Below the pieces are notes generated by a model that saw nothing but the letters and a program-made list of their open reading frames with translations, ran no database searches and was not told where the DNA came from. From contig WFZT01000051.1 of NCBI GenBank assembly GCA_015489415.1, forward strand, positions 1 to 39,907: a DNA stretch of 39,907 bases, read 5' to 3'. How positions within the stretch are numbered: position 1 is the first letter of the stretch; each line of letters begins with the position of its first letter. Source of the stretch: Caldifarciminota bacterium. Lineage in GTDB: Bacteria; Hydrothermota; Hydrothermia; B15-G9; WFZT01. Both the position numbers and the translations under genes were made by a program. This document shows, one piece after another, positions 754-22,387 of the stretch.

Positions 754-831
754 AAATTTTTGCTACATGATGAAAAAGTCATTGAGTAGAACTCATAATC
801 GGCCCACCCCACCAAACCCAGAGGAGAGATT

Positions 832-1599: not shown

Positions 1600-1625
1600 C
1601 TCTCAACCTTAAAGGGAGATTGCTT

Positions 1626-3524: not shown

Positions 3525-3540
3525 CAAGGGAGGTTAGACC

Positions 3541-4425: not shown

Positions 4426-4427
4426 CC

Positions 4428-5480: not shown

Positions 5481-5503
5481 GCTAATTTAAAAGGAGGTGT
5501 AAC

Positions 5504-6742
5504 ATGATGTACAAATGGCTAAAGGGGATAGCCTATCCCCTCGTGATTGTGGCCCTTGTGGCCATGGGTATGGTGTTTACACCGGGCAGAGCAGAGGCGA
5601 AAAAGGAGATCAAAATCGGTGCATTATTCGATATTACCGGACCTACCGGTGACGTCGGCGCCCCATACGCTGATGGTGTTCGCGACTACGTCCGCTACAT
5701 TAATGAAAAGGGAGGGATCGGCAACGGGGTCAAGATCAAACTCATCTGGACCGACTATCAGTACAAAGTTCCCCAGGCAATCTCAACCTACACAAAATAC
5801 GTCAAGCAGGATCATGTTGTCGCTATCATTGGTTGGGGAACCGGTGACTCTGAGGCATTGAAAGAGAAGGTTGTTAAGGACAAAATTCCTTACATCTCAG
5901 CCTCATTCTCTCAGCATCTTGTCTGGCCACCAAAATGGAACTTCCTCGCCGCTACCACTTACGCAGACCATGTAAGAGCTGTGATGAAATACATGAAAGA
6001 CCACTGGAACAAAAATAGACCTCTCAGAATGGCCCTGATTTACAACGATACAGGCTATGGTAGGGCACCAATAAAACCTGCCAAAGAGTATGCAAAAAAA
6101 CTTGGTATTGACCTCGTTGACATTGAGCAGGTAGGCCTCCGCGCCCTCGAGGCAACCTCCCAGCTTCTGAGAATCAAGCAGAAGAAGGCAGACTTTGTAT
6201 TCATTCAGGAAACATTCATGGCAACCAGCACAATTCTCAAAGATGCCAAGAAACTCGGGATGGACAATGTAATCTTCACCGGTAATTTCTGGAGTAGTGG
6301 TCAGAAACTGGCCGAGCTGGCCGGGGATGCGGCCGAGGGATATCTCGGCGCCATGCCTTTCGGCATCTGGTCTGATAATTCAGAAGGAATCAAGTTTGCC
6401 AAGATGCTCAATGCCAAGTATCATCCAAACATCAAGTACAGAGACCCTCAGTATGTTACGGGTCTGGTCAACGCAATGGTCATGATTCATGCCGTTGAGA
6501 TGGCCCTCAAAGCAAAAGGAGGAAACTACAAGAAGGTTAAAGGTGAGGACGTTTACAAGGCATTTGAGTCCATGAAGAACTTTGACACGAAGGGACTCAC
6601 CACACCTATATCCTACAGTCCTTATGATCACAGAGGAGCGAAAGGAATTAGACTTGTAACGATTAAGAATGGGAAACTGGTAGCAGCCACAGATTGGTTC
6701 AATGTCCCACCTGTACCTGAGTGGGAGAAGAAGGGAGAATAA
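5504..6742 (+). CDS. ABC transporter substrate-binding protein (LivK/HAAT family)
   Basis: The extracytoplasmic ligand-binding protein of the importer, 412 residues. A cleavable signal peptide (MMYKWLKG, then a hydrophobic core ending GRAEA at residue 32) precedes the mature start KKEIKIGALFDITGPTGDVG, the standard first strand of type I periplasmic binding proteins. The fold continues with DGVRDYVRYINEKGGIGNG, VAIIGWGTGDSEAL and MALIYNDTGYGR, plus a C-terminal domain ending in TPISYSPYDHRGAKGI. An AAGGAGGTG binding site fits the ATG. The absence of the LivJ disulphide pattern and the neighbouring acyl-CoA ligases make a carboxylic acid or other non-amino-acid ligand possible. A strong hairpin directly follows the stop and may raise its expression above that of the ATPase downstream. 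Confidence 0.92.
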   Translation: MMYKWLKGIAYPLVIVALVAMGMVFTPGRAEAKKEIKIGALFDITGPTGDVGAPYADGVRDYVRYINEKGGIGNGVKIKLIWTDYQYKVPQAISTYTKYVKQDHVVAIIGWGTGDSEALKEKVVKDKIPYISASFSQHLVWPPKWNFLAATTYADHVRAVMKYMKDHWNKNRPLRMALIYNDTGYGRAPIKPAKEYAKKLGIDLVDIEQVGLRALEATSQLLRIKQKKADFVFIQETFMATSTILKDAKKLGMDNVIFTGNFWSSGQKLAELAGDAAEGYLGAMPFGIWSDNSEGIKFAKMLNAKYHPNIKYRDPQYVTGLVNAMVMIHAVEMALKAKGGNYKKVKGEDVYKAFESMKNFDTKGLTTPISYSPYDHRGAKGIRLVTIKNGKLVAATDWFNVPPVPEWEKKGE

Positions 6743-6748
6743 AAATAA

Positions 6749-6781
6749 TTTAGGGCGGCGCCCTTCGGGCGCCGCCCTAAA
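6749..6781. terminator. Perfect 15-bp hairpin between the binding-protein gene and livF
   Basis: TTTAGGGCGGCGCCC (6749-6763) pairs exactly with GGGCGCCGCCCTAAA (6767-6781) around a TTC loop. It begins 7 bases after the binding-protein stop and ends 14 bases before the livF ATG. The 3' flank is AACACTCATAAAATT, not a U-tract. A partial terminator or a 3'-exonuclease barrier is therefore the likely role. Confidence 0.75.
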
Positions 6782-6795
6782 ACACTCATAAAATT

Positions 6796-7590
6796 ATGCT
6801 CGTACTCAACAACATTGAAGTTATATACAACCAGGTGATCCTCGTTCTGAAAGGCGTCTCGTTAGAAGTTCCTGATGGTGACATCAGGGCACTTCTCGGC
6901 GCCAATGGAGCGGGGAAAACTACTACCCTTAAGGCCATCTCCGGACTCCTCAAAGAAGAGGACGGAGAGGTAACGGACGGCTCCATCGAGTTTAACGGTG
7001 AAAGAATAGATAAAAAGAGCGCAGAAGAAATCGTTAAGATGGGCATTTTTCAGGTCATGGAAGGGAGACGTGTTTTCGAGCACCTTACAGTCGAAGAAAA
7101 TCTCCGTGCAGGTGCATACACTCGAAAGGACAAACACAATGTCAAAAGCGACATGGAAATGGTCTATTCCTACTTCCCCAGACTTAAAGAGCTCCGACAC
7201 AGAGTTGCAGGCTACCTCTCTGGTGGTGAGCAGCAGATGCTTGCTATTGGAAGAGCCCTTATGGCGCGCCCCAAACTCATGCTCCTTGACGAGCCTTCCC
7301 TTGGACTCGCGCCACTGCTTGTTAAAGAAATCTTCGATATTATCGAGAGAATCAACAAAGAAGAGGGTGTTGGAATCCTTATCGTCGAGCAGAATGCTAT
7401 GGCCGCTCTAAACATCGCCACTTATGGCTACATTATGGAAAACGGAAGAATTGTTATGGACGGACCTGCAGAAAAGCTTAAAGAGAACCCCGACGTAAAA
7501 GAATTTTACCTCGGCCTCACACAGGTCGGTAAGAAAAAGAGCTTTAGAGAGGTGAAACATTACAAGAGAAGAAAGAGATGGCTAACCTGA
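6796..7590 (+). CDS. livF: ABC transporter ATP-binding protein, LivF type
   Basis: The second ATPase of the importer, 264 residues, slightly longer than the typical LivF because of a basic C-terminal tail (KKKSFREVKHYKRRKR). Walker A is GANGAGKT at ~35-42, the signature LSGGEQQMLAIGRAL, Walker B LMLLDEPSLGL, and the H-loop equivalent is LIVEQNA with Gln rather than His, as is normal in LivF. QVMEGRRVFEHLTVEENL is a LivF hallmark. No convincing ribosome binding site precedes the ATG, because the upstream sequence is the hairpin's 3' arm plus an A/T-rich spacer. It is followed 12 bases later by the PaaK-like gene. Confidence 0.93.
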   Translation: MLVLNNIEVIYNQVILVLKGVSLEVPDGDIRALLGANGAGKTTTLKAISGLLKEEDGEVTDGSIEFNGERIDKKSAEEIVKMGIFQVMEGRRVFEHLTVEENLRAGAYTRKDKHNVKSDMEMVYSYFPRLKELRHRVAGYLSGGEQQMLAIGRALMARPKLMLLDEPSLGLAPLLVKEIFDIIERINKEEGVGILIVEQNAMAALNIATYGYIMENGRIVMDGPAEKLKENPDVKEFYLGLTQVGKKKSFREVKHYKRRKRWLT

Positions 7591-7602
7591 TGGGAGGTGA
7601 TT

Positions 7603-8808
7603 GTGGACCTAAAAGCTAAACGTGAGAAAAAATTAAGGGAAATTGTTAAATTTGCGTACCAAAACTCACCCGCGTTTAAAAAGCGCATGGATGATGCGGG
7701 ACTAAAACCCGATGATATCAAAACCATCGAAGACCTTGAGAAAATTCCTGTGATCCGGAAAGATAATCTGGTGGAAATTCAGGGCCAGAATCCACCTTTT
7801 GGCGGGCTTTTAGCTGTTCCTCCACAAAATCTTAAAAGAATTTTTCAATCGCCAGGGCCCATCTATGATCCGCAGGGAGAGGAAGAGGATTACTGGAACT
7901 GGAAAGAGCCGCTCCTTGCAGCTGGCTTCACACAGGATGACAGTGTAATCAATACCTTTTCTTACCATCTCTCACCGGCAGGAATAATGTTTGACGAGGG
8001 GCTCAGGTCCATTGGAGCCACTGTGGTTCCTACAGGTGTTGGAAATACCGAGCTACAGGTTAGAATTATAAACGACCTTGGTGTAACAGGCTTTATAGGC
8101 ACTCCGAGCTTTCTCATTACACTTTTAAAAAAGGCTGAGGAGCTCGGACTTAATTTTACGATAAACAAGGCTTTTGTAACTGCTGAGCCCTTTACACCAT
8201 CTCAGAGGAAAACCTTTGAAGAGCATGGAATAAAGGCATTTCAGGGCTATGGTACAGCCGATGTAGGGGCAATTGCCTTCGAATGTGAATACCGGGAAGG
8301 TATGCATGTTATTGAAAATCTTATTCTTGAAATTGTTGACCCATCAACCGGGAAACAACTGCCTCCAGGGGAAGTGGGAGAGGTCGTTGTCACACTGTTC
8401 AATAAAACTTATCCGCTGATCAGATTTGGAACCGGTGACCTTTCCAAACTTCTTGAAGAGCCATGTAAGTGTGGAAGGGAAACAGAAAGAATCGCTGGTT
8501 TTATGGGAAGAATTGGCGATGCCGTGAAGGTTAGAGGTATGTTTATTCATCCTGGCCAGATCGCTGGCGTGTTGAAACGATATGAAATTTTTGCTGACTT
8601 TGTCGCAGAGGTCACACGTGAAGGTGAGAGAGACTTTCTAAAACTGCAGGTGGAAGCTACGAACACCGATGAGGCTGAAAAATTGAGAGAAGAATTACTT
8701 GCGAAACTCCGGGATGTCTTAAGGGTTCGCGTGGATAAGCTTGAATTTGTTCCTTTAAATAGTGTAAAATCAGAAAAGAAAATAATTGACAAAAGGGAAT
8801 GGAAATAA
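7603..8808 (+). CDS. PaaK-like phenylacetate-CoA ligase family protein (degenerate ATP loop)
   Basis: About 401 residues, resembling phenylacetate-CoA ligases in length and order. It has the N-terminal NSPAFKKRMDDAG and EDLEKIPVIRKDNL, the A5-like YGTADVGAIAFEC near 216, RFGTGDLSKL near 274, CKCGRETERI, and the A8-like MGRIGDAVKVRGMFIHPGQI near 301. Where PaaK has the phosphate loop (SSGTTGKPT) this protein has FQSPGPIYDPQGEEEDYW (~81), which lacks the Ser/Thr/Gly-rich loop. ATP-dependent ligation is therefore uncertain. The protein could use another acyl donor, be a binding or regulatory homologue, or keep a variant catalysis. GGGAGG (7592-7597) is correctly spaced for GTG 7603, whereas GTG 7597 overlaps it. 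It sits between livF and a CBS protein in the transporter operon. Confidence 0.78.
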   Translation: MDLKAKREKKLREIVKFAYQNSPAFKKRMDDAGLKPDDIKTIEDLEKIPVIRKDNLVEIQGQNPPFGGLLAVPPQNLKRIFQSPGPIYDPQGEEEDYWNWKEPLLAAGFTQDDSVINTFSYHLSPAGIMFDEGLRSIGATVVPTGVGNTELQVRIINDLGVTGFIGTPSFLITLLKKAEELGLNFTINKAFVTAEPFTPSQRKTFEEHGIKAFQGYGTADVGAIAFECEYREGMHVIENLILEIVDPSTGKQLPPGEVGEVVVTLFNKTYPLIRFGTGDLSKLLEEPCKCGRETERIAGFMGRIGDAVKVRGMFIHPGQIAGVLKRYEIFADFVAEVTREGERDFLKLQVEATNTDEAEKLREELLAKLRDVLRVRVDKLEFVPLNSVKSEKKIIDKREWK

Positions 8809-8820
8809 GGAGGAAATGAG

Positions 8821-9462
8821 ATGTTTGTTAAAGATGTTATGACACCAAGTCCCATAACGGTAACTCCAGACACCCTCGTGATTGACGCCGAGAAGACCAT
8901 GAGGGAAAACAAAATCCGTGCTCTACCTGTGGTGAAGGGGGACAAGCTCGTCGGGATCGTTACCATAAACACCCTGAGAGAGGCAATGCCCTCGAAAGTC
9001 ACCACCCTGAGCCAGCACGAAATTCAATATCTCCTTCTTAAGCTGAAAGTTGAAGATGTGATGACCAGAAATCCCATAACGGTCAACGAGAATGCTCTGC
9101 TCGAGGAAGCCGCAATTCTGATGAACAAGTACAGAATCGGGCATTTGCCTGTTCTAAACGACAAAAAGAAGTTAGTGGGGATAATCACGGAAACAGACAT
9201 ATTCAAAACCATGATCAAAATCCTCGGACTTGAGGAAGAGGGTATAAGGCTGACCATCGAGGATGTCCCTGTGGAGGCTGGTAAGATTGCGGATATAATT
9301 TGCACTATTTCACAGTTTAACCCCTTGATCTTGAGTCTTACAACCCTGATGTCACCGGATAAGAAAAAGAGAACCATTGTAATGAGAATCAAAGTTGCAA
9401 ACCCTGATAGAGTATTCTCTACTTTAAGAGACAAAGGCTACAAACTTTTCGTAAAATATTAG
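8821..9462 (+). CDS. CBS-domain pair protein with C-terminal ACT-like domain (AcuB-like)
   Basis: 213 residues. CBS domain 1 covers ~1-57 (VKDVMTPSPITVTPDTLVIDA ... LVGIVT). CBS domain 2 covers ~74-135 (VEDVMTRNPITVNENALLEEA ... LVGIITETDIFKTM). The rest, ~140-213, has an ACT-like pattern (VPVEAGKIADIICTISQFN ... VMRIKVANPDRVFSTLRDKGY). CBS pairs bind adenine nucleotides, and ACT domains bind small ligands such as amino acids. By analogy with AcuB, this is a probable nucleotide-sensing regulator of the acyl-CoA ligases encoded just upstream. The binding site AAGGAGG lies before the ATG. It is the last gene of the operon and is followed by a terminator hairpin. Confidence 0.83.
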   Translation: MFVKDVMTPSPITVTPDTLVIDAEKTMRENKIRALPVVKGDKLVGIVTINTLREAMPSKVTTLSQHEIQYLLLKLKVEDVMTRNPITVNENALLEEAAILMNKYRIGHLPVLNDKKKLVGIITETDIFKTMIKILGLEEEGIRLTIEDVPVEAGKIADIICTISQFNPLILSLTTLMSPDKKKRTIVMRIKVANPDRVFSTLRDKGYKLFVKY

Positions 9463-9466
9463 CATT

Positions 9467-9490
9467 TGCGGGAGCTCCCCGGCTCCCGCA
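9467..9490 (+). terminator. Terminator hairpin closing the liv operon
   Basis: TGCGGGAGC (9467-9475) pairs with GCTCCCGCA (9482-9490) around a 6-base loop, five bases after the CBS gene stop. It is followed by TCTTCAATTC, a weak U-tract. Confidence 0.65.
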
Positions 9491-9638
9491 TCTTCAATTC
9501 AGCAGAATCAATTTCCTGAAGAAAAATACAGAGTTGCATTCTCCCAATCTAAAGATATCGCCTCTATACCAGTTAACCCCAAGAACGAATTCTTTGAGAG
9601 AAAATTGCATGATGGAAGAGGCTAAAATTTAGCAAGTG

Positions 9639-9731
9639 TGTTCGCATATTTCCAAACGCAAAAAATTTTTCCCCCGCATGAATACTTGCTTTGAGAATAT
9701 CAATGATGGGGTGCAACAAATCTCAAATTTC
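9639..9731. repeat. Dispersed repeat copy A (paired with 22139-22231)
   Basis: It shares TGTTCGxATATTTCCAA, then TTxCCCCGCATxAATACTTGC, and a final CAACA..TCAAATTT block with 22139-22231 in the same order and spacing. The hairpin present in copy B is decayed here. Confidence 0.5.
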
Positions 9732-9732
9732 C

Positions 9733-9762
9733 TTGACAGTTGTTTTTTAACGGATTTAAGAT
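9733..9762 (+). promoter_or_regulatory. Probable promoter of the giant repeat-protein gene
   Basis: TTGACA (9733-9738) is followed after 18 bases by TAAGAT (9757-9762), four of six consensus. The start codon lies about 70 bases downstream. The perfect -35 carries most of the weight. Confidence 0.5.
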
Positions 9763-9839
9763 AATTTTTTAATTTTTCTGCCGGAATGCGGCGATAATAA
9801 AATATTGTCTTGCTCTTTAAATTCAATAGGAGGTACGAT

Positions 9840-12800
9840 ATGGTGGGTATACTACTTGTGTTAATGGCGGTACAGCCGCTATTAACACCCAAAACACATC
9901 CTGTAAAAATGCAGGAGGGAATAAAATCTGTCCCCCACACTATAAACTATCAAGGATACCTGACAACAGCTGATAACAATCCTGTTAGCGATACGCTGAA
10001 CATGGTATTCGCCCTTTACAGAACCCAAAATGGCGGAAATGCCCTCTGGGAAAGTCCTCAAATGAATGTAGCTGTTCTTAACGGTGTGTTCAATGTGATT
10101 CTTGGAGAGAATACCCAGATACCTGACTCAGTGTTTAATGGAGGTGATGTCTGGCTTGAGATAAGGATAAATGGTACTCCATTGACTCCGAGACAAAAGG
10201 TTGTGAGTGTTGGATACAGTTACAGGGCAATAAATTCTGATTATGCGGCAGATGCAGGTCATGCTGTCAATGCTGACACTTCTGGTTACGCATTCAACAC
10301 TGATACTGCCAATTTTGCAATTAATGCGGGACACTCCACCACTTCTGACACTACAAACTACGCAGAGATTGCGGGTCACGCAATTCATGCAGACACTGCT
10401 GGTTATACCATGCACTCTGATACGGCTAACTTTGCGACCAATGCCGTACACTCCGTAACTGCTGACACGGCTAACCATGCGATAAATGCAGACCATGCTT
10501 TCATCTCTGATACGGCGGCTTATGCGGTGCATTCTGATAGTGCAGGTTATGCAGCAAATGCTGGCTATACCGCCCATTCTGACACTGCAAACTATGCAGT
10601 GAATACCGAACATGCCCTCAATGCCGATACCTCTAGTTACGCGATGCATGCGGATACTACGACTTACGCAATCAATGCCGGGCACGCTATCAATGCTGAC
10701 ACAGCTAACTACGCGATGAGTGCAGAGCATACTGTTAGCGCTGACACCGCTGATTACGCAACAAATGCCACACATGCTGTCACCTCTGACACAGCGAATT
10801 ACTCAGGAAACGCAGGGCACGCCCTAACTGCAGATACTGCTGGATATTCTCTACATTCTGATACTGCAAGTTATGCAACAAATGCAGGGCATACTGTCCA
10901 TGCCGATACAGCGAGTTATACCATGCATGCTGATACTGCGAGTTTTTCCACTCATTCCATCACAGCGGACACGGCGTTGTTTGCCCATGTTGACAGCGTG
11001 AGCTTTGCGTCATCCGCCCACCATGCGGATACAGCGACTCATGCCCTCGTTGCGGATACAACCTACCATTATATCAATCAGTTTACACATGCTGACACAG
11101 CCGATTTTGCGATGCATGCTGCTGTTGCGGACACTGTTTCTCACATGATTGGACAGACCACTCATGCTCAGACTGCGGACACTGCAGGTTATGCCACGAA
11201 TGCAGGACATTCTATTAGCTCTGACACTTCAAATTACTCGACAGAAGCAGCTCACGCTGTCACTGCTGACACTGCAGGTTATGTGATATATGCTGATACG
11301 GCTAACTATGCGACAAATACTGGGCGTGCAGTCAACTCAGACACGGCAGATTATGCGACAAATGCGGGTCATAGCAGTATTGCTGACACATCGAATTATG
11401 CGGCGAGTGCGATGCATGCTGTTCATGCTGACTCAGCTAATTATGTTGCATATGCTGATACGGCGGGTTATGCGGTGGGTGCTGGACATGCTGTGACTTC
11501 AGACACGGCAGGCTATGTGATTCGTGCGGATACTGCAGATTACTCAATAAATGCAGGGCATTCCGTAAATTCTGACACAGCTAACTTTTCAACAAATTCG
11601 GGTCATGCGGTGACTGCGGACACATCGGGTTATGCGGCGAATACAGGGCTTGCCGTTCATGCTGACACGGCGAACTATGCAACAAATGCCGGGCATGCTG
11701 TCAATGCCGACACAGCGAGCCATGCTTTAATTGCCGATTCGATTGCAGGGGCACCACCGAGTCCGTGGAAGGTGGAAGGTAACATCATCTACCCTGTATC
11801 AAGATACGGATTGGCCATGGATGAGACTGACACGCTTTTCGGAGACAGTGCGATCACGCACATAAATCTTGGTCATGGCTCGATAACTGGTTTACCTGGA
11901 GTCAACCGCAGGTACTCTGCGGTTTTGAGTGGCCTCCTCAATAGATCATGGGCTGATTTTTCGGTAGTAGCTGGAGGATATTACAATTGTGCTGATTCAG
12001 ACTTAGTCTTTGTGGGAGGTGGTGAACTCAACACAGCGTCAGGACATGAATCCATTATTGTCGGCGGTGTGGCCAACACAGCGTCAGGATTTAGGTCCTT
12101 CGTCGGTGGTGGGCACGGAAACACAGCATCTGGATATAATTCCATTATTGTCGGTGGTGAGTACAACAACGCGTCAAGATTTCTGGCCTTTGTCGGCGGA
12201 GGATATAAGGATACGGTATCAGGAGATTATTCCGCAGTCGTGGCGGGATATCACAACAGTGCTGATACTCCTTATTCCTTTATCGGGGGTGGAAAGCATA
12301 ACCATACATCAGGAGTTAATTCATTCATAGGGTGTGGTTCTGCCGACACAGTGTCAGGATTTTCTTCCTTTGTCGGAGGAGGATTTAATAATATAGCGTT
12401 AGGAGATTACTCAGTTATTGTGGGAGGATATTACAACCAAGTTGATTCAGCTTATTCTTTTATCGGAGGTGGGTATGGGAACAGGGTATCAGGTGATACA
12501 TCCTTCGTCGGGGGCGGAAAAAATAACCATGCATTGGGGGCTTTATCATTCGTTGGTGGCGGTGCTGCTCACACAGCGTCAGGATTTGGTTCATTCGTCG
12601 GAGGCGGATATCACAACCGAGCTGATACGGCTTATGCTTTTATAGGCGGCGGTGCAGAAAATACAGCGTCAGGATGGGGTTCCATTGTTGTTGGGGGATG
12701 GCGAAACAGAGCATCAGGAGCTTATTCGTTTGTCGGAAGCGGAGATCGTGACACAGCATCAGAATCTTATTCCTTTATTGGAACTGGAGAATTTAACACA

Positions 12801-13853
12801 GTGCACGGACCGTTTTCCTTTATTGGAGGAGGATTTATTAACACAGTGTCAGAATGGTATTCCTTTATCGGGTCAGGACTGAAAGACACAGCATCAGGAT
12901 ACGTCTCCATTGTGGTTGGGGGCGAGGGCAATATATCTGGCGGGGAATATTCCTTTGTCGGCGGCGGATATCATAACCGTGCCGATTCAGGCTATACCTT
13001 TGTAGGAGGTGGTTCTTCTGATACAGCCTCGGCCCGCTATTCGGTTGTTGTTGGTGGATTTGGAAATAACGCATCTGGAGATACATCGTTTGTTGGAGGA
13101 GGAAAGAATAATAATGCGTCAGGAATTCTCTCATTCGTAGGTGGCGGTTACGCTGATACAGCGTCGGGAGATTACTCAACCGTTGTCGGTGGAAAATATA
13201 ACAAAGCGTTTGGAGATTGGTCTTTAGTCGGGGGCGGGTGGGGCAACAGAGCGTCAGGTTATACTTCCTTTGTCGGCGGGGGAATCTTTAACCGGGCTGA
13301 TTCATCCTATTCCTTTGTGGGTGGTGGAGCTGTAAACACAGCGTCAGGACGGTATGCCGTTGCCGTTGGCGGATGTTGCAACACTGCTGATGGTGAATAT
13401 TCGTTTGCATTTGGCGATTCTGCCCATACAAATGGCCACGATAGTACTGCTGTGTTTTACTGGGGCGACAATACGGGACACTTCTTCATAGGAGCTAATG
13501 CCACATCAACAAGTTACCGACTCTATGTGAACGGCTCGATCTATTCCTCCAAAGGCACTTTTGTTGATGCACCCTCTGGTAAAATCCTCTCTATCTCATC
13601 ACCTTTCAGTATGATAAAGAAACTTCATGGTGTTACTTTCATCCAAGAGGGTGAGACCAGAACTGGTATTCCTGCAGATGAACTCGAAAAGGTCCTGCCG
13701 TCCGCTGTCCAGCGTGCACCTGACGGGCATGTCGAAGGTGTCGATTACGAGCAACTTGTCCCCGTGCTCCTCGAAGTGATCAAAAAACAGCAGGCAAAGA
13801 TTGAGGAACTTGAAAGAAGGGTCTCACAGCTTGAGAAAGAGAGAGGTAGATAA
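9840..13853 (+). CDS. Giant secreted repeat protein: ADT-repeat stalk, YadA-head-like repeats, S74-like C-terminus
   Basis: 1337 residues from ATG 9840, chosen because AGGAGG (9828-9833) is six bases ahead; an upstream in-frame TTG at 9810 lacks a site. A short hydrophobic leader (MVGILLVLMAVQPLL) is followed by a small beta domain (~31-128; INYQGYL, ALYRTQNGGNALWE, VFNVILG, TPLTPRQKVVSVGYSYRA) often found at the start of bacterial surface proteins. Residues ~131-640 are tandem units near ADTANYATNAGHAVN (15 residues), interspersed with 9-residue units like ADTAGYTMH. Residues ~697-1200 are about thirty units near SFVGGGYHNTASGDY, again 15 long and similar to the YadA/trimeric adhesin head. 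The end (GIPADELEKVLPSAVQ, VDYEQLVPVLLEVIKKQQAK, then a coiled coil) resembles the peptidase S74 intramolecular chaperone. A trimeric cell-surface fibre or adhesin is the likely role. The stop overlaps the next ATG by one base. Confidence 0.82.
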   Translation: MVGILLVLMAVQPLLTPKTHPVKMQEGIKSVPHTINYQGYLTTADNNPVSDTLNMVFALYRTQNGGNALWESPQMNVAVLNGVFNVILGENTQIPDSVFNGGDVWLEIRINGTPLTPRQKVVSVGYSYRAINSDYAADAGHAVNADTSGYAFNTDTANFAINAGHSTTSDTTNYAEIAGHAIHADTAGYTMHSDTANFATNAVHSVTADTANHAINADHAFISDTAAYAVHSDSAGYAANAGYTAHSDTANYAVNTEHALNADTSSYAMHADTTTYAINAGHAINADTANYAMSAEHTVSADTADYATNATHAVTSDTANYSGNAGHALTADTAGYSLHSDTASYATNAGHTVHADTASYTMHADTASFSTHSITADTALFAHVDSVSFASSAHHADTATHALVADTTYHYINQFTHADTADFAMHAAVADTVSHMIGQTTHAQTADTAGYATNAGHSISSDTSNYSTEAAHAVTADTAGYVIYADTANYATNTGRAVNSDTADYATNAGHSSIADTSNYAASAMHAVHADSANYVAYADTAGYAVGAGHAVTSDTAGYVIRADTADYSINAGHSVNSDTANFSTNSGHAVTADTSGYAANTGLAVHADTANYATNAGHAVNADTASHALIADSIAGAPPSPWKVEGNIIYPVSRYGLAMDETDTLFGDSAITHINLGHGSITGLPGVNRRYSAVLSGLLNRSWADFSVVAGGYYNCADSDLVFVGGGELNTASGHESIIVGGVANTASGFRSFVGGGHGNTASGYNSIIVGGEYNNASRFLAFVGGGYKDTVSGDYSAVVAGYHNSADTPYSFIGGGKHNHTSGVNSFIGCGSADTVSGFSSFVGGGFNNIALGDYSVIVGGYYNQVDSAYSFIGGGYGNRVSGDTSFVGGGKNNHALGALSFVGGGAAHTASGFGSFVGGGYHNRADTAYAFIGGGAENTASGWGSIVVGGWRNRASGAYSFVGSGDRDTASESYSFIGTGEFNTVHGPFSFIGGGFINTVSEWYSFIGSGLKDTASGYVSIVVGGEGNISGGEYSFVGGGYHNRADSGYTFVGGGSSDTASARYSVVVGGFGNNASGDTSFVGGGKNNNASGILSFVGGGYADTASGDYSTVVGGKYNKAFGDWSLVGGGWGNRASGYTSFVGGGIFNRADSSYSFVGGGAVNTASGRYAVAVGGCCNTADGEYSFAFGDSAHTNGHDSTAVFYWGDNTGHFFIGANATSTSYRLYVNGSIYSSKGTFVDAPSGKILSISSPFSMIKKLHGVTFIQEGETRTGIPADELEKVLPSAVQRAPDGHVEGVDYEQLVPVLLEVIKKQQAKIEELERRVSQLEKERGR
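10240..11745 (+). repeat. Tandem 45-bp (15-residue) and 27-bp (9-residue) coding repeats
   Basis: Inside the giant gene, DNA encoding the ADTxxYAxNAGHAVx and ADTxxYxMH units repeats head to tail with drift at synonymous and variable positions. There are no unique spacers and every unit stays in frame, so this is a protein repeat and not a CRISPR array. Confidence 0.85.
11930..13435 (+). repeat. Tandem 45-bp coding repeats of the head-like domain
   Basis: Recurring in-frame units encode SFVGGGxxNTASGxY or SxIVGGxxNxASGxx, about one every 45 bases. Some units have D/H/R changes at the NT/DT position and others carry an NRADxxY variant. The pattern matches left-handed solenoid heads of YadA-type adhesins, with a 15-residue instead of the usual 14-residue period. 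Confidence 0.8.
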
Positions 13854-14374
13854 TGAGAAAGCTTGTCATTCTTGCCATCTTTGCAATTCCAATGACCTTA
13901 GTAGCCCAGACGAATTATGTCCTCCGAAGTGGCACCATCTCTCAGGGCGGAGGTACCTCCACTTCCTCTCAATATCGACTTACTGGCATAACCGGTATAA
14001 CCACCGTGGGCAAGAGCCACAATTCAAACTACAACCTACAAAGTGGAATGCCTTATCAGGCTATCCTCGTCAGCATCCATGAGGGTCCTGGACAACCTCT
14101 AAAATTCCAATTCCTACCACCCTACCCAAGTCCAATGATTAACAGGGTCAATATCTCTTTTGTACTTCCTCAGAAAAGTAATGTTGAACTCAGCATCTAT
14201 GAAATAAGCGGAAGGAAAGTATGGACGCTCAGGAAATCATTCTCATCTGGACGACACGGAGTTGTCTGGCATGGAGTTGACAATTATGGCCACAGGTTAT
14301 CAAGTGGATTGTACATTCTCAAATTCAGGGCAGCGGGTCATCTTCTGACTCAGAAGTTAATTATATTGAGGTAA
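13853..14374 (+). CDS. Small secreted protein with C-terminal FlgD-like / Por-type sorting domain
   Basis: 173 residues. A signal peptide (MRKLVILAIFAIPMTLVAQ) precedes a short segment of YVLRSGTISQGGG and NYNLQSGMPYQ, a motif seen at the N-termini of other secreted proteins. The last ~85 residues form an Ig-like C-terminal domain: PYPSPMINRVNISFVLP, VELSIYEISGRKVWTL, GRHGVVWHGVDNYGHRLSSG, LYILKFRAAGHLLTQKLIIL. This is the arrangement of T9SS type A or FlgD-like sorting tails. The ATG overlaps the stop of the giant repeat gene (TAATG), so the two are translationally coupled. It may help export or anchor the fibre, since the giant protein itself lacks such a tail. That role is inferred from position only. 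Confidence 0.75.
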   Translation: MRKLVILAIFAIPMTLVAQTNYVLRSGTISQGGGTSTSSQYRLTGITGITTVGKSHNSNYNLQSGMPYQAILVSIHEGPGQPLKFQFLPPYPSPMINRVNISFVLPQKSNVELSIYEISGRKVWTLRKSFSSGRHGVVWHGVDNYGHRLSSGLYILKFRAAGHLLTQKLIILR

Positions 14375-14376
14375 GA

Positions 14377-14422
14377 GGGATGAGTGGTAGGGATGCCCCT
14401 TCGGGGCATCCCCCCTCATCCC
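14377..14422. terminator. Two-tier terminator hairpin after the repeat-protein operon
   Basis: The inner stem GGGATGCCCC (14390-14399) pairs with GGGGCATCCC (14403-14412) around a TTC loop. An outer stem GGGATGA (14377-14383) pairs with TCATCCC (14416-14422). It begins two bases after the stop and is followed by TTCAAAAATCC. It also sits at the end of the minus-strand transposase remnant and may act in both directions. Confidence 0.72.
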
Positions 14423-14423
14423 T

Positions 14424-14773
14424 TCAAAAATCCAGAAACTCATCCTCGCCAAGTCCCTGTAAAACAAATATCATTGTCAGGGTGGCATATTCAATAACTT
14501 CAATTTCCCCAACATTTTTCTGAAGATCAGAACTGAACTTTAGCCCTTTGCCTCATCTGATTGTTCATCCACCTCTATCCATTTTCTTTTTGAATACTTC
14601 ATCAGTCCCTCTATAATCCTGTCCAGATCACCTTCCTGCAGTTTTTCCAGACGTCCTAAGTTAGCAATAATCCTTTGACGCACTTTACCATTAACGCGTC
14701 TGCCGTCGACGATATAGAGGTATGTCCTTGTTGTACCATTTTTATTTTTGAATGTCTTGGTTCTCACAAACAT
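14424..14773 (-). pseudogene. IS1634-type transposase remnant (N-terminal, frameshifted)
   Basis: The N-terminus MFVRTKTFKNKNGTTRTYLY, then VDGRRVNGKVRQRIIANLGR and LEKLQEGDLDRIIEGLMKYS, is the conserved opening of IS1634-like (IS4 superfamily) transposases. The first frame stops at 14540 after DEAKG. Shifting frame there restores LKFSSDLQKNVGEIEVIEYA followed by TLTMIFVLQGLGEDEFLDF, which continues the expected family pattern up to a stop at 14424. The DDE catalytic core is entirely absent, because full-length relatives have about 500 residues or more. It is a dead fragment. Its terminal inverted repeats were not found. It lies at the edge of the AT-rich block and may mark how that block arrived. 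Confidence 0.72.
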
Positions 14774-15106
14774 AGCATGCAGATTATAGAGCTTATATTG
14801 AAACAGATCAAGAATTGTTTCCCCCACTTGTAGCACAACGAAAGAATGATAAATAAAATAAAAAAAATACTACGGATTTAAGAATTCCAGGTACAAAAAA
14901 TCTGATCCAGAGTCAAGAATTGAGAAATACTCATAATTATAGCACCCAAAACCGATTACCAATGATTAAAATTATTGTTAGAACTGGACCTACTTAAAGA
15001 AAGCAGAAATTCGAATTTTATCTTCACAAGACAAAAACTTGCCGAGATAGAGGAAAACCTTTTACGTGAAATGAACACATTACTGCAAAGGGGAACAAAT
15101 AATTTG
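14774..15106. other. AT-rich intergenic region, no feature recognised
   Basis: These 333 bases lie between the transposase remnant and the end of the GTPase-partner gene. No open frame, RNA gene or strong hairpin is supported. Confidence 0.5.
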
Positions 15107-16726
15107 TTATTCTTTATCCTTATGGAGCAATTCATCCTTTAGAAATTTTACAAGTTCATTATCGATCGGACTTGTTAAATCACTCAATAAATATGTAGGC
15201 TCAAAGAATCTTTTGTAGGCTTCTCTTAAATTTTCTATAAGAGGCCAAAATTTTGAATTTTTCAAATAGTTTGTTTGTAATTCATCCACAAGTACCTTGC
15301 ACTTTTTCGATAGCCATGACACGAAATCCGTTCTTTTAACTTTATAACCACCGATAAATTTCCTCCTCTCAAGATATTTCTCCTTTTCTATCTTAATTTC
15401 TCTTGCTACCTCATTGACCATTCTGGAAAGATTCTGATTTTGGTAATTACTGGCAAAATTAGATATCTCTCCTATCAAATTAAAAAACTCTTTCAACCGC
15501 GCCTCCCTATTATCTTTTTCAAAAGAATTGAGCTCTTTTAAAAACTCGTCCATTAACTTAAGGATTGCCTCTACATCACCTCTTAATTTTAAAATTTCCC
15601 TTCTCTCTCGTTTTATTTTGCTCCTGAGGTCTATTAAACCATTAAAATCTTCAGCAAGTTTTAACAACGAGGAAAAATATGAAAACCCCCTCTCAAGGGC
15701 AATATTTTTCATGAGCTCAAAATTACTTGGGGAAAGAGTATCTTTGAGCTCATTGAAAGCATAGGGACTCAAAAATATGAAAGCGGTGGATAGCAAATTC
15801 TCCTTATCAACTTTTTTTGTGAGGTCTGTTTCAGGTGGTTTCAGATAGGGAAAATCTTTACTATTCTCAACAAAATAGCGTGTAGATTTCATGAGCTCTT
15901 CTCCAGGAATTAAGGAGAAAAAGGACATACTATAAAGTAATTCATAAGCTGAATATTCTGACAATTTGAATTTTCTCACTAACATTTCACTTGCCTTTTT
16001 CAAATTTGAGAAAAATACATGTAAATAGTTATCTACCGGTGTTCCTACGAGATGATATGAGTATTTCCAGAAATCAAAAAGTTTAACAGAATCTTCACTT
16101 TCCTCCAAAGACAAAATGTCCATTGTTTTGATAGCTTTGTAAATTGGGTCATCCGAAATGCAATGGTCATGAGAAATTTTAATCTCTATCTTTGAAACAA
16201 GGTCCTGTCCTATTATCGATAATAAATCCTGGGGAAAATCATTTAAAATCGCATTTATTTTCTGGAAATCACCTTTAATAATCAGGGGAGGTAGCTGTTT
16301 TTTCTCGTTAATCAGGCCAACAATCTTCTGCGGCATCCATCCTGCATATTTATGAAAAATCTCAACTACTGACGTTGCCTGGTTCCTGTCTTTACCGAGT
16401 ATTTCCTCCTCTTTTGACGAATTGAAGAAAAACGATATCGAGTTTTTTCTATAATCTTTGGTTATAGAAATTCGCTCCACGTGATTTAGAACATCTTTAT
16501 AAAGCAAATCGTCCATTTTCGTGAAAACGTTTTCAATGATGGGAGCAGAAATTTTGTTTAATCCATATACAAGGGCATCAAAAATTCCGATATCAATCTC
16601 TCGGTTTATGTCTGGTATTCCCACCTTCGCGACCAATACAGAAAATGTCTTATGGTAACTGTCATCAGCTACAACATAGTTGCTCAATATCTGGTATAGA
16701 TTTTTAAATGTCTGAAAATTTTTCAT
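15107..16726 (-). CDS. Large helical protein of unknown function, partner of the dynamin-like GTPase
   Basis: 539 residues with no motif I recognise. The composition (many Lys, Glu, Leu, Ser) and long stretches free of Pro and Gly predict an almost wholly alpha-helical protein. The region around residues 365-460 (SKIKRERREILKLRGDVEA, LMDEFLKELNSFEKDNREAR, REIKIEKEKYLERRKF) has a coiled-coil pattern. There is no signal peptide and no clear membrane segment. Its start overlaps the stop of the upstream GTPase gene by four bases (ATGA), indicating translational coupling and probably a stoichiometric complex. Several bacterial dynamin-like proteins work in pairs with a second, often helical, protein. 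That it plays such a role here, as membrane-remodelling partner or effector, is inference. Confidence 0.7.
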   Translation of the reverse strand: MKNFQTFKNLYQILSNYVVADDSYHKTFSVLVAKVGIPDINREIDIGIFDALVYGLNKISAPIIENVFTKMDDLLYKDVLNHVERISITKDYRKNSISFFFNSSKEEEILGKDRNQATSVVEIFHKYAGWMPQKIVGLINEKKQLPPLIIKGDFQKINAILNDFPQDLLSIIGQDLVSKIEIKISHDHCISDDPIYKAIKTMDILSLEESEDSVKLFDFWKYSYHLVGTPVDNYLHVFFSNLKKASEMLVRKFKLSEYSAYELLYSMSFFSLIPGEELMKSTRYFVENSKDFPYLKPPETDLTKKVDKENLLSTAFIFLSPYAFNELKDTLSPSNFELMKNIALERGFSYFSSLLKLAEDFNGLIDLRSKIKRERREILKLRGDVEAILKLMDEFLKELNSFEKDNREARLKEFFNLIGEISNFASNYQNQNLSRMVNEVAREIKIEKEKYLERRKFIGGYKVKRTDFVSWLSKKCKVLVDELQTNYLKNSKFWPLIENLREAYKRFFEPTYLLSDLTSPIDNELVKFLKDELLHKDKE

Positions 16727-18708
16727 GAAATAAGCTCAATCCCTAAAGATTCTGAGAAAAGTTCAATCTCCTTTTGTAGCTTTTCTTTCTCCTTTTTTAT
16801 GTCGTTGATTATAGACTTATTCTTTTTGTAGTCTGAATAGGCAACATCTGTAAACTCGGAAATAGTTGTCAGAATTTCATCCCTGATTTCTTCAAGAGAT
16901 GATTCTATATCCTTTATGATACTGTCGTTTATCGATGTGAGTAATTCAGACACCACTTTGCGAATATCTCTGATTTTTTCTGCCTTCTCTCGCTCAAAGA
17001 ACCTTTTAGGTGGAGGGGAGATAAATGCATCATAGACAAAGAAGAGAAGAGCTCCACCCATCCCTAAAAACCCTAAATATTTCAAAAAACCCAAATTTCC
17101 AATCAAGGGTATATGAACTGAACCAGCCTTTATTAAAATTACAGAAATCAACAATGTGAGAAAAAATTTTGGATCGGACAAAGAATTTAAAATTCGTCGA
17201 ATTATATCTATTTTCGGAGACTTAAATCCACTAAAACGCATAAGATCAATGTCTTTCAAATCATCTACAAAAGATGGAGATAATACATATCCATCAATTA
17301 CGTCAAATATCTCATACAGCAACTCCTGCATTCTATCATCTGGCAAATTGATTTTTCTACTAAGAACTTTTTCTATCTGTGCTTTTAAAGAATTTTTAGT
17401 GTCTGCAAACTCAGTTTGTAAAGTCATCTCCAATCTGTTAGATAGTTGTTGTAACACTGTATCCAACTCCGAGAGGTATTGTTTAAATTGAGATTCATTG
17501 TTAGCCATCATAAGGCTTGAAATTTTACCCTCTATTTCGTTTCGATGCTCCCTTATTATATCTTTTGCTCTCAATTTGATTCCCCTTAATTCCGATTTGC
17601 CAACTTGGGATAAGTCCACTTTTATCGTCTTTTTGCCTGCAGATGGTTTATTTTTCTCGATTTCATTACTGATGTCATTGACAAATTTATTTAAGAAAGA
17701 GACAAGGTCCACGAGACTATTCCTGATCTCATATATTTTCTTTTTAAACAATTCAGGTTTCTGCTGTTGCTTTTTAGGGATAGGAGACATCCTCTCTTCC
17801 ACAAAATTTATGATAGTCTCACGCAATTGAGATATATTTGTCCCATCCTTATTTGATACAAACACACTTCTCACTGGTATCCATTTTGCAATAGAGGGCA
17901 AATGTTCCTTGGCAAGTTCCTTTGCTTTCTCTATGATTTCCTCTTCGTCCTTGCAATCGGTGTAAACAACGGATTCTTTTGCTTCATCAAAGAAGGTAAA
18001 AACTGGTATCATAGGTATATTTTTAATTCCAGCAATAACTGGCTCTACGGCTCGTCCCGCTTTATCGATCTCTGTCATTTTTATAACAACAAGTATAAAA
18101 TCCATTAGTTCTAATGTCTCTCTCGTTAACACCTTATCTTTGAAATACCGTCCACCTATACCTGGCATATCAACAATTGCAATATTATTACGGGCAAAAA
18201 GAACACTGAAACCTTTAATTGCCGGTAATTCTAAATGATAGTAGTCTATAATAGAGGTGTCTTCATCTGGCTCAATCGAGGTAGAGGGTCCTACACTTTC
18301 AACTAATTCTTTTAATGAAATCTCCTCCTTATCCTTTGTTGTTTTAACTATATATGCACGTGGAAAACTCAATCTCTCTTTAAAGTCCACACGAGTTATT
18401 TTGGACGTGACTATACCTTCTCCTTCTGGTAAGCCATAATCTTGAGGTATGGAGAATATTCTGTTTAAAAGGGCCGTTTTCCCGTGAGAGTATCTGCCTA
18501 TAAGACCAACAGATACTGGAGAGTTCAGTGCATCTATAACAATGTCAATTTTCTTAGACAATTTTGGGATATAAATATCATCGAATTTCCGTTTCAAGTC
18601 TTCGAACTCTTCTGATTCGAATGATAATCTCTGAATTAGAGCGGTAACGCCTTTTCTAAATTCCTGAATATTTTGATCAAGCTCTTTGGTTTTTTCTTTA
18701 ATATTCAT
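16723..18708 (-). CDS. Bacterial dynamin-like GTPase with membrane-inserting hairpin
   Basis: 661 residues. The GTPase domain follows an N-terminal helical region. G1 is GRYSHGKT at 71-78, a G2 candidate Thr is at 101 in GIVTSKITR, and G3 is DMPG at 180-183. G4 is degenerate (TFFD at 238-241 instead of T/NKxD), and SNKDG at 285-289 could serve G5. Helical stalk sequence follows (310-510). A hydrophobic hairpin at ~515-562 (FFLTLLISVILIKAGSV ... LGFLGMGGALLFFVYDAF) is flanked by basic residues, as in the paddle or membrane-insertion segment of bacterial dynamin-like proteins. A second coiled helix closes the protein (570-661). This order fits membrane remodelling, fusion or membrane-damage sensing. 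A ribosome binding site AAGGAGGG precedes the ATG. It is coupled to the 539-residue partner downstream, with a trypsin-like protease gene 90 bases upstream on the same strand. Confidence 0.82.
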   Translation of the reverse strand: MNIKEKTKELDQNIQEFRKGVTALIQRLSFESEEFEDLKRKFDDIYIPKLSKKIDIVIDALNSPVSVGLIGRYSHGKTALLNRIFSIPQDYGLPEGEGIVTSKITRVDFKERLSFPRAYIVKTTKDKEEISLKELVESVGPSTSIEPDEDTSIIDYYHLELPAIKGFSVLFARNNIAIVDMPGIGGRYFKDKVLTRETLELMDFILVVIKMTEIDKAGRAVEPVIAGIKNIPMIPVFTFFDEAKESVVYTDCKDEEEIIEKAKELAKEHLPSIAKWIPVRSVFVSNKDGTNISQLRETIINFVEERMSPIPKKQQQKPELFKKKIYEIRNSLVDLVSFLNKFVNDISNEIEKNKPSAGKKTIKVDLSQVGKSELRGIKLRAKDIIREHRNEIEGKISSLMMANNESQFKQYLSELDTVLQQLSNRLEMTLQTEFADTKNSLKAQIEKVLSRKINLPDDRMQELLYEIFDVIDGYVLSPSFVDDLKDIDLMRFSGFKSPKIDIIRRILNSLSDPKFFLTLLISVILIKAGSVHIPLIGNLGFLKYLGFLGMGGALLFFVYDAFISPPPKRFFEREKAEKIRDIRKVVSELLTSINDSIIKDIESSLEEIRDEILTTISEFTDVAYSDYKKNKSIINDIKKEKEKLQKEIELFSESLGIELIS

Positions 18709-18798
18709 AATCCCTCCTTATTACTGTGCTAATTTTAATACAGAAAAATTTTTAATTGCAAGGCAGGATTTTCTTTAAAAATTTTTAGTCATTTTAAT

Positions 18799-19650
18799 TC
18801 ACTTAAAAAGATTTCTTAAGAATTTACTTATTTCTTTTGGCTTAGTGGGAAGTAGTACAAAATTCCAATCATCCACTTCTTTTAAAATTTCAGGTGAGGA
18901 AATAGCAAAATTCAAACCTTCACTAATATTTTTCCGTATTCCCCAAGTATTCATCCCTACTACTCGTCCAAATTCATCCATAAGAGGCCCCCCGGAATTA
19001 CCTGGATTTATTGCTGCATCAGTTTGGATATAAGTCCCTTTAAACTCTGGTATTTTTAACACATTCGAGACAATACCTTCAGTAAAAGAAAATTCCAGAG
19101 AGTACGGATGTCCCATTGCGAAAACTTTTTCTCCCACTTTTGGGTATTCATTAGATAAAATTAACACCGGATAATCACCGATCTTTCCATCTACAATAAG
19201 AACTGCTATGTCTTTTAGAGATTTATTAATAAATATCCTAGTCACAGGTATACTATCCCTTCTATCATAAGGACTAATGAATACCTTATATTCTGAGAAT
19301 TTAGGCACAGAATGTTTTTCCGAATAAATTAGTTTCTCAAACCCCAGCACATGCATATTGGTTAAAACCACATACTGTCCATTTGCATAATTTATAAAGA
19401 ATCCAGAGCCTAATACACTGTAAGCTTTCTTGCTCAAACCAAAGAATTTTGATTCTTTGCAGTAACACTTCACAACTACAGTGGATTTTTTGACTACTTT
19501 TGCAAGCTCCTCTGGAGAAAAAGGCTTTTCTGATCGTACCTTTTCAACTTGTTTCTTCTCTTTATGTTGCTCATTTGAGCAGCTTACAGAATATGTGTAA
19601 ATAAACAACAGAGAAATTGAAATCAACACCCCTTTTTTCAACATCCTCAT
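18799..19650 (-). CDS. HtrA-like trypsin-family serine protease, probable lipoprotein, no PDZ domain
   Basis: 283 residues. The N-terminus MRMLKKGVLISISLLFIYTYSV runs to Cys24 (SVSC, an imperfect lipobox), suggesting export and lipid anchoring. The chymotrypsin-fold catalytic triad is clear: His100 in VVLTNMHVL, Asp147 in NKSLKDIAVLIV and Ser219 in AAINPGNSGGPL. FAMGHPYSLEFSFTEGIVS is the HtrA/DegP strand preceding the active serine. The protein ends soon after the protease domain, so the PDZ domains of classical HtrA are missing. GGAGGG lies just upstream, and two ATGs six bases apart are possible starts. It lies on the same strand as the dynamin-like pair (90-base gap) and diverges from the DUF1232 gene. 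Confidence 0.85.
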   Translation of the reverse strand: MRMLKKGVLISISLLFIYTYSVSCSNEQHKEKKQVEKVRSEKPFSPEELAKVVKKSTVVVKCYCKESKFFGLSKKAYSVLGSGFFINYANGQYVVLTNMHVLGFEKLIYSEKHSVPKFSEYKVFISPYDRRDSIPVTRIFINKSLKDIAVLIVDGKIGDYPVLILSNEYPKVGEKVFAMGHPYSLEFSFTEGIVSNVLKIPEFKGTYIQTDAAINPGNSGGPLMDEFGRVVGMNTWGIRKNISEGLNFAISSPEILKEVDDWNFVLLPTKPKEISKFLRNLFK

Positions 19651-19748
19651 TTTACCCTCCTTTCTTCATATTAGAAGTGTTAAACTTTATTTTATAGCAT
19701 TTTGAAAATATATGGAATAAAATATGGATAACTTAGCTTAATCTCAAG

Positions 19749-19808
19749 TTTGACATGTGCGGCGAATTTTTGTCGCAATATTGCGAATTTTTAAATTTGG
19801 ATGTCAAA
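19749..19808. promoter_or_regulatory. Nested palindromes between divergent genes, candidate operator
   Basis: The outer arms TTTGACAT (19749-19756) and ATGTCAAA (19801-19808) surround a perfect 12-bp palindrome CGCAATATTGCG (19774-19785), whose centre is within about one base of the outer centre. GCGAATTTTT also occurs twice as a direct repeat (19762-19771 and 19783-19792). On the minus strand the right arm supplies a TTGACA that could be a -35 for the protease gene. Confidence 0.5.
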
Positions 19809-19904
19809 GTAGTGGTACGCGTAAAATGATTGAATATCAATGGTTTTGGGAGATAGTGTCAAAGTTGAGTTAATATAAACTTTAGATTGAAAAGGGGGTA
19901 AATT

Positions 19905-20309
19905 ATGAGAAAGATAAACGATGAAGAGGCAAAGAAGATTCTAAATCAAGAATCAAAAAAGATAACGGAGGACGAACTAAGGAAGATATTGGAGAAGCAG
20001 AGACAAATAGAGGATAAATTCACTTCATCGGGGCCGTTGGGGAAATATGTTGAGGATGCAAAGCTACTTATCTCAATCATTAAAGATTATTTTAACGGTA
20101 GCTACAAGGATATTCCGTGGCATTCAATAACAGCAATTGCGGCAGCATTATTATACGTGCTGAATCCCTTAGATGTAATTCCAGATTTCATTCCTGTCAT
20201 AGGGCTATTAGACGATGCAACAGTTGTAGCAATCTGTCTAAAACTTATAGAGCAAGATTTACAGAAATACAAGGATTGGAAACTTAAACATATAGGGGAT
20301 TCTTTTTGA
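19905..20309 (+). CDS. DUF1232 (YkvA-like) membrane protein
   Basis: 134 residues. The first ~45 are a charged helix (KITEDELRKILEKQRQIEDK). The core, about residues 75-115, is the DUF1232 signature: AAALLYVLNPLDVIPDFIPV followed by IGLLDDATVVAICLKLIE, with the conserved N/S-P-x-D-x-x-P-D and D-D pairs. The family is small, hydrophobic and membrane-associated, and its biochemical role is not established. An AAGGGGGT binding site precedes the ATG. It is transcribed divergently from the protease/dynamin genes, sharing a 254-base regulatory region that contains a nested palindrome, so co-regulation is possible but unproven. Confidence 0.85.
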   Translation: MRKINDEEAKKILNQESKKITEDELRKILEKQRQIEDKFTSSGPLGKYVEDAKLLISIIKDYFNGSYKDIPWHSITAIAAALLYVLNPLDVIPDFIPVIGLLDDATVVAICLKLIEQDLQKYKDWKLKHIGDSF

Positions 20310-20711
20310 AAATTTCTTGATCATAGTTTCTTAAGAAAATATCGGATAATCAATAAAGGGTTAAGGATATCACCTTTTTCATACTATCTTTATAATTTGC
20401 TTTGATTTTCTCTTTAGGGTCTCTAATCTCTTAAATGCGGGCCCTTTGAATATCTAAGTCCTGTTATTGAAACCTTCCCTTGACATTCATTATGGTATCT
20501 TTTTTAAATAAATTATCCTAAGACTCTAATTTTTTCGAGTCGCCCATTGACTCAAAATTTCACTTGAGAAATACAATAATTATATTATATCTCCCATCAA
20601 ATCTTACTTCAAAATGAGACTTTAATAAAGGTCATCTAATAAAGATTATCTTTAAATTCCCCCGATCTTGGTAAATAATCATTCTACCGAATAAAGAAGG
20701 AGGAAATGAGT
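20310..20711. other. AT-rich intergenic region upstream of the propeller lipoprotein
   Basis: No gene is seen. TTGACA at 20480-20485 with TTAAAT 18 bases later (20504-20509) could be a promoter but is about 200 bases from the next start, so it is weakly supported. AGGAGG at 20698-20703 is the ribosome binding site of the next gene. Confidence 0.45.
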
Positions 20712-21809: not shown

Positions 21810-22138
21810 ATCTTCCATTTTGCAGATGCAATAATTCACTATCCTGCTCTCGAATTCCCTCAAAATTTGCAAAAATGGTCCCTTAAGGTATTCGTTTTGG
21901 TACCTTGTGCCATTGTAAAAAGGCCTCTAAATTCTGAGTATGGAAAATTCGATAGAGCACAACAAATCCACCGATCCTGAAAGAAAAGAAACCATATACT
22001 TAATAAAGATCAAGTCAATATACACAGTCCAGGTTACCGAGCAAAAAGAACAAAAATCCAAAGATGATGATGTTTTTATTTCAAAACCTGAGGGGTGTGT
22101 TAAATGAAGGCATTGTCAAAGTCAATGCTGGTGGAGCT

Positions 22139-22231
22139 TGTTCGAATATTTCCAACAAAATAGCCCTTTCCCCGCATAAATACTTGCGGGGAGAGGATAA
22201 AAGGAGAGGGACAACATAATTCAAATTTTTC
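22139..22231. repeat. Dispersed repeat copy B (paired with 9639-9731), contains a hairpin
   Basis: It shares the same ordered blocks as 9639-9731. Within it, CCCCGCA (22170-22176) pairs perfectly with TGCGGGG (22185-22191) around an 8-base loop, so copy B looks like the less decayed form. Confidence 0.5.
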
Positions 22232-22327
22232 GTATAAAATGAGTAATTGAACTCACATTTGTCTACCCAGTGACAGAATGTCTTTATCTTAAATTTCAAT
22301 TTTCAAGCAGAATGCCCCCTCCCAAAA

Positions 22328-22360
22328 CCCTCCCCCACTTGCTTTGCAAGTCGGGGAGGG
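22328..22360. repeat. GC-rich hairpin, related to the one at 25792-25824
   Basis: CCCTCCCCCACTTGC (22328-22342) pairs with GCAAGTCGGGGAGGG (22346-22360) around TTT, with one mismatch. The 15-base left arm is identical to 25792-25806. Confidence 0.65.
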
Positions 22361-22387
22361 AAACTTAGATCAGTTCTTGCAGACTCA

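Follow-up and report, generated by a model that had tools for sequence, protein, structure and literature searches.

A rare island-borne locus of a dynamin-like GTPase, a coupled partner and an anchored protease that looks like an apparently unnamed membrane-protection or phage-defence module

Three consecutive genes in a Caldifarciminota bacterium raise the question of whether a trypsin-like protease, a dynamin-like GTPase and a large helical protein can belong to a single system. The stretch of DNA analysed here (the window, 39,907 nucleotides) is an entire contig of a 2.57-Mb MAG. An original prediction, made from the letters of the window, proposed that GTPase and partner make up a single machine, for which the exported protease may sense or process envelope stress. 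It omitted both a gene of the DUF1232 family lying next to the trio and the island that carries all four genes. We sought to establish what the genes encode, whether they keep company in other genomes, and which known system, if any, they resemble. Coordinates are collected in Table 1.

Table 1. Features of the window and of the loci compared with it (coordinates as numbered within each locus).
Locus	Feature	Coordinates	Strand	Remarks
Window	Protein of long repeats	9810-13853		1347 aa
Window	Protein following the repeat protein	13853-14374		
Window	Low-GC island	14421-20647		6.2 kb, about 34% against 45% GC; 386 bp in the congener
Window	Fragment at island edge	14540-14836	minus	No family match; another genome copy at 41% identity
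Window	P0001, partner	15107-16726	minus	539 aa; third gene of trio
Window	P0002, dynamin-like GTPase	16723-18708	minus	661 aa; second gene of trio
Window	P0003, trypsin/HtrA-like serine protease	18799-19650	minus	283 aa; first gene of trio; Trypsin_2 and triad motifs, no PDZ
Window	MITE-like repeat	19743-19869		127 bp; between protease and DUF1232 genes
Window	P0004, free-standing DUF1232 (YkvA-type) gene	19905-20309	plus	134 aa; divergent to trio, same island
Window	Dispersed palindromic repeat	22134-22378		
L073	Genuine LeoA/LeoBC pair	3595-7256		Same phylum
L074	Genuine LeoA/LeoBC pair	3733-7231		Same phylum
L075 (G032:C22)	Dynamin-like genes and DUF1232 gene	370-8791		Same phylum
L118 (G059:C1:123000-139000)	GTPase gene (GRSGHGKS) overlapping DUF1232 gene	7914-10027		
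L123	P0002 relative			Omnitrophota MAG
L124	P0002 relative			Desulfoprunum (Desulfobulbales); locus ends at contig end
L125	P0002 relative			Thiocapsa imhoffii
L126	P0002 relative			Thiocapsa marina
L126	NERD + UvrD-like helicase gene	7186-9516		Directly upstream of dynamin pair
L127	P0002 relative			Hydrogenedentes MAG
L128	P0002 relative			Thiocapsa roseopersicina
L128	Gene matching that of L126	7428-9515		Same place, same Walker motif; NERD and UvrD domains tested in L126 alone

The gene trio and its island

All three predicted reading frames were found where they had been placed, on the minus strand and in the order protease, GTPase, partner. The last two share the four bases ATGA (16723-16726), as had been claimed, and through this overlap P0001 is translationally coupled to P0002. 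The protease gene precedes P0002 by 90 bp, an interval devoid of any terminator-like site, and a GGAGGG motif, a good ribosome-binding site, stands ahead of the start codon in both P0003 and P0002.

P0003 matched the Pfam family Trypsin_2 with 83.5 bits (E 3e-23). Its top NCBIfam matches were proteases of the HtrA/DegS types, covered over the protease domain alone, and no PDZ domain was found by Pfam or NCBIfam search. The residues H100, D147 and S219, embedded in the motifs TNMH, DIAVL and GNSGGP, make up an intact catalytic triad; the description of the protein as an HtrA-like protease lacking PDZ was thus borne out. Like the anchored serine proteases DegS and HtrA, P0003 combines a trypsin-like domain and a triad with an N-terminal membrane anchor; unlike them, it has the Trypsin_2 domain without PDZ and is encoded alongside a dynamin pair. 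The N-terminus is hydrophobic and continues into SVSC, with a serine at position -3 instead of L, V or I. The label "lipoprotein", given in the original prediction, is insecure because the lipobox is atypical. P0003 is more safely described as membrane-anchored, and possibly a lipoprotein.

P0002 matched Dynamin_N with 41 bits (Pfam cut-off, 27) and contains the G1 and G3 motifs that had been reported for it, GRYSHGKT and DMPG. This combination places the protein in the dynamin superfamily. At the G4 position it reads TFFD rather than the canonical [NT]KxD, which the Pfam dynamin model does not demand. The claimed hydrophobic hairpin was recovered as two stretches, at residues 513-537 and 539-563, whose position is conserved in the six relatives described below; this C-terminal hairpin (residues 513-563) is the predicted membrane-interacting tip. 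P0002 is, on these motifs, a bacterial dynamin.

Between about 14.6 and 20.7 kb the GC content falls from about 45% to 34%, and third-position GC drops too. In the congener G003, the sequences corresponding to window positions 14420 and 20648 lie 386 bp apart on one contig (C272). Because both flanks sit together there, the jump in GC cannot be put down to a chimeric contig. P0001, P0002 and P0004 were not encoded in any of the three congeners searched. The low GC, the empty site and the absence from the three congeners together mark the trio and P0004 as a foreign island, acquired horizontally. Within the island, the MITE-like repeat has terminal inverted repeats, CTCAACTTTGACA, and target duplications of about 5 bp; the window genome has five or more further copies, 88-96% identical. 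The fragment at the island edge presumably resembles the N-terminus of an IS1634-type transposase.

Relatives of the GTPase and recurrence of the trio

Direct searches with P0002 detected no relatives in 147 genomes, plasmids, viral contigs and phages, and a first alignment of P0002 with distant dynamins was unproductive in finding any. Relatives were sought by scanning 84,980 species with a bait alignment of P0002 and typed P-loop variants. The bait served only to pick places to search; each match was then verified in a tblastn search using the unaltered P0002 sequence. Six full-length relatives were identified (E 5e-26 to 2e-29; 24-28% identity to P0002 by tblastn), a lower bound since the scan was limited to sequences with one P-loop pattern. 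The three Thiocapsa members are named strains (DSM 217, DSM 21303, 5811) and not MAGs, and material may be obtainable. The patterns G-x-Y-S-H-G-K-[ST], D-x-P-G and T-F-x-D are invariant in all seven proteins, the G4 position reading TF[FW]D throughout. In a profile search of 390 genomes around G000, covering the phylum and beyond, the GTPase appeared at full strength in the window's own genome alone, and the new profiles disclosed no further case in 390 + 14 genomes, nor in viral or plasmid sequence.

Only GTPase similarity was used to retrieve the related loci, and in all five with intact flanks a gene of partner size (612-662 aa) overlaps or abuts the GTPase gene. The junction is ATGA in the Omnitrophota locus, as in the window, TAATG in T. 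imhoffii, TGATG in both T. marina and T. roseopersicina, and TAG|ATG in the Hydrogenedentes locus. Thus, an adjacent, coupled partner gene, a feature of tandem dynamin pairs, is found in the window and at 5/5 intact relatives. These results uphold the proposal that the GTPase belongs with its neighbour in a single unit, and by its genetics P0002 is a dynamin of the tandem-pair kind.

The protease showed a different distribution. It adjoins the pair at two of the six loci with both flanks, namely in the window and in Omnitrophota. In the latter, a 308-aa frame starts at 13781, 1 bp beyond the partner stop; its product is likewise trypsin-like with an N-terminal membrane anchor, and is 28% identical to P0003 over nearly the full length, tail included (blastp E 4e-21). 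The window and Omnitrophota genomes contain three and six Trypsin_2 genes, respectively. Since these genes are so few, the chance of one adjoining a given pair is about 0.3%. At the other four of the five related pairs no protease is adjacent, which makes it an optional accessory. The idea of a three-gene system was therefore sustained in part: the trio recurs in another phylum, so that adjacency of the protease is not peculiar to this genome, but most related pairs do without it. Its absence there favours a reading in which the unit is the GTPase-partner pair alone: a tandem dynamin that reshapes membranes in general (fusion, fission, vesicles), accompanied on the island by protease and DUF1232 genes that are unrelated cargo. 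The 1-bp spacing in a second phylum, where trypsin-like genes are rare, argues in the opposite sense. The DUF1232 evidence, given below, bears on the same choice.

The partner proteins and the DUF1232 gene

P0001 had no sequence match in Pfam, NCBIfam, PADLOC or PDB, and no homologue was found in the contigs of the window genome, in 150 genomes from inside and outside the phylum, or in plasmids. Its comparison with the relatives' partners was equally negative by hhalign (score 20.9, against 22.3 for the best shuffle), by hmmsearch with their profile (rank 73 of 659) and by global alignment with shuffles (z -1.4 to 0.3). Between the Omnitrophota and T. marina loci, the GTPases are 43% identical and the partners 25%, showing that the partner evolves faster than the GTPase. 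Since the window GTPase is itself only 22-24% identical to the others and the partner faster-evolving, any similarity of P0001 is expected to lie below detection. We propose P0001 to be the positional equivalent of the relatives' partners, a correspondence drawn from position, coupling and size rather than from sequence. Pairwise scoring of P0001 as a degenerate dynamin was rejected: it gave z values of 5-7 with P0002, but reversed P0001 and coiled-coils also scored high against GTPases.

Structural modelling was informative for the relatives. The AlphaFold model of P0001, with a pLDDT of 37.6, was too poor to use and had no match in Foldseek (as a control, no dynamin was matched). The model of the T. 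marina partner, built from a five-sequence alignment, reached a pLDDT of 66, with values mostly of 78-92 at residues 90-220. Dynamins made up all of its top PDB matches, with the Campylobacter jejuni pair Cj-DLP1/Cj-DLP2 first (E 1.7e-5, probability 1.00), SynDLP next (3e-5), then IniA and mitofusins; in a viral library, named dynamins accounted for six of the top seven matches. TM-scores of about 0.2 are low because the domain arrangement of this protein is poorly modelled. Homology between partner and GTPase was not visible by profile comparison, and a motif scan found neither Walker A nor DxPG in any of the six partners (window and relatives), unlike the GTP-binding partners of Cj-DLP and LeoBC. 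The model thus lends good support, as regards the relatives' partners, to a dynamin-type fold that would have lost GTP binding. The original statement that the partner shows no recognisable domain holds for P0001; it fails for the relatives' partners, which have the look of a dynamin without P-loop and end in a DUF1232-like domain.

The latter domain links the partners to P0004, which matched DUF1232 with 51.4 bits (gathering score 23). The C-terminus of the relatives' partners gives a weak Pfam match to the same family. When aligned to the partner profile by hhalign, P0004 scored 38.7, the best of 60 shuffles scoring 22.8; by hmmsearch it ranked first of 1186 sequences (E 1.4e-4). P0001 is shorter than the relatives' partners and has no DUF1232-like region. 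The domain is thus fused in the relatives and split off in the window, and this arrangement links P0004 to the system: P0004 is probably the equivalent of the domain fused to the relatives' partner. Two further arrangements were noted. In the G032 genome of the same phylum, three consecutive dynamin-like genes and two unknown genes are followed by a DUF1232 gene whose product is 48% identical to P0004; and in L118 the overlapping GTPase and DUF1232 genes are on a contig that also carries, about 10 kb away, a true LeoA/LeoBC pair. Most other DUF1232 genes, in genomes of the phylum and in plasmids, are not near GTPases. A DUF1232-dynamin link on plasmids was considered and discarded, the neighbouring genes being unrelated.

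For the pair-alone reading, it counts that DUF1232 genes elsewhere mostly do not lie beside dynamins and that P0004 is on the opposite strand, with the MITE-like repeat in between. Against it stand the DUF1232-like domain of the relatives' partner, best matched by the island's own DUF1232 gene, and the G032 homologue near three dynamins. With the protease evidence added, we consider it unlikely that the pair is the whole unit.

Known systems, proposed function and mobile setting

Heterotypic pairing is thought to be usual among bacterial dynamins; tandem dynamins act as hetero-oligomers, both members being needed for activity (PMC6104087). In Bacillus subtilis, DynA delays phage-induced lysis, linking a dynamin to membrane protection (PMC8844932). 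The C. jejuni pair (PDB 5OWV), to which the relatives' partner is structurally closest, is encoded by two adjacent genes, as here. It differs in having GTP-binding motifs in both members; the present module also has a DUF1232-like domain, either fused to the partner or encoded on its own, and at some loci a protease. DynA, a bacterial dynamin for membrane protection as we propose for this module, is one protein made of two fused active dynamins, with neither protease nor DUF1232.

The LeoA/LeoBC systems (Leo/Eleos in PADLOC and DefenseFinder) are dynamin-like pairs on mobile islands, like the present one, and P0002 resembles them weakly by profile, raising the prospect of a divergent member. 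The PADLOC LeoA/LeoBC models matched P0002 at 35-36 bits and the relatives at up to 68 bits, the partner giving no match; the genuine pairs of L073 and L074, with two intact GTPases each, scored 229-336 bits. The partner here has no P-loop and is not a GTPase. The LeoBC match of P0002 was also rejected as a sign of membership, as this model fires at the same level in 14/14 control genomes. Assignment to Leo therefore appears very improbable. A literature search of partial coverage returned no paper naming a dynamin together with DUF1232, nor any describing a pair of bacterial dynamins in which one member is a pseudo-GTPase.

We favour, with a probability of roughly 55%, the reading that the locus is a mobile accessory module with a tandem dynamin pair at its core, and with protection from envelope damage or phage attack as its most likely use. 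The module would probably consist of one dynamin that is active, a second that has lost GTP binding and serves as its partner, DUF1232 and, optionally, an anchored protease. We infer that the two dynamins would assemble into a hetero-oligomer on the inner membrane, like Campylobacter DLP1/2, with the partner controlling assembly and hydrolysing no GTP of its own. DUF1232, whether fused or separate, may tie the complex to the membrane, and in a subset of lineages the outward-facing protease might sense damaged envelope proteins or clean them up. The envelope would be kept intact when the membrane is damaged or phages attack, in a manner comparable to DynA. The stronger version, a new system for membrane surveillance or phage defence in which, in some lineages, dynamin remodelling and envelope proteolysis would work as a single machine, is put forward tentatively, as clearly less likely than not.

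Why bacterial dynamins are usually paired is an open question on which the module bears: a GTP-binding-dead partner under strict coupling would separate the partner's structural role from catalysis and make that role testable. The link would also give a first functional lead for DUF1232, a widespread domain whose function is not known. Association of a protease with a dynamin pair in two phyla would join the remodelling of membranes to proteolysis in the envelope.

The related loci also have the look of mobile accessory DNA, possibly of defence DNA, in a small sample with few defence neighbours. In Thiocapsa the pair has a GC content of 41-47%, against 60-66% for the host. Transposase genes lie beside the pair in the Omnitrophota and T. 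imhoffii loci, the latter also having type I restriction-modification genes, and the NERD + UvrD-like helicase gene of T. marina has its counterpart in the same place in T. roseopersicina (Table 1). Such mobility and neighbours would suit an abortive conflict system, in which an infection detected by the GTPase and its partner would lead them to free or switch on the protease as a toxic effector; trypsin-like peptidases are indeed effectors in GTPase-centred conflict systems (PMC7159879). The N-terminal anchor of both proteases, which should place the catalytic domain outside the cytoplasm, is at odds with this scheme. Moreover, Pfam detected no GAP1, GASH or EAD domain in P0001 or the relatives' partners, so that the locus does not belong to the GAP1/GASH GTPase systems, and the protease is missing from most relatives. 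We regard an abortive system as improbable.

Three other features of the window were recorded. The dispersed palindromic repeat has tens of copies, both in this genome and in the congener G003. The 1347-aa protein consists of long degenerate repeats, first of the HADTANYA type and then of the SFIGGG..N.ASG type. Right after it is encoded a protein with a secretion-tail-like C-terminus.
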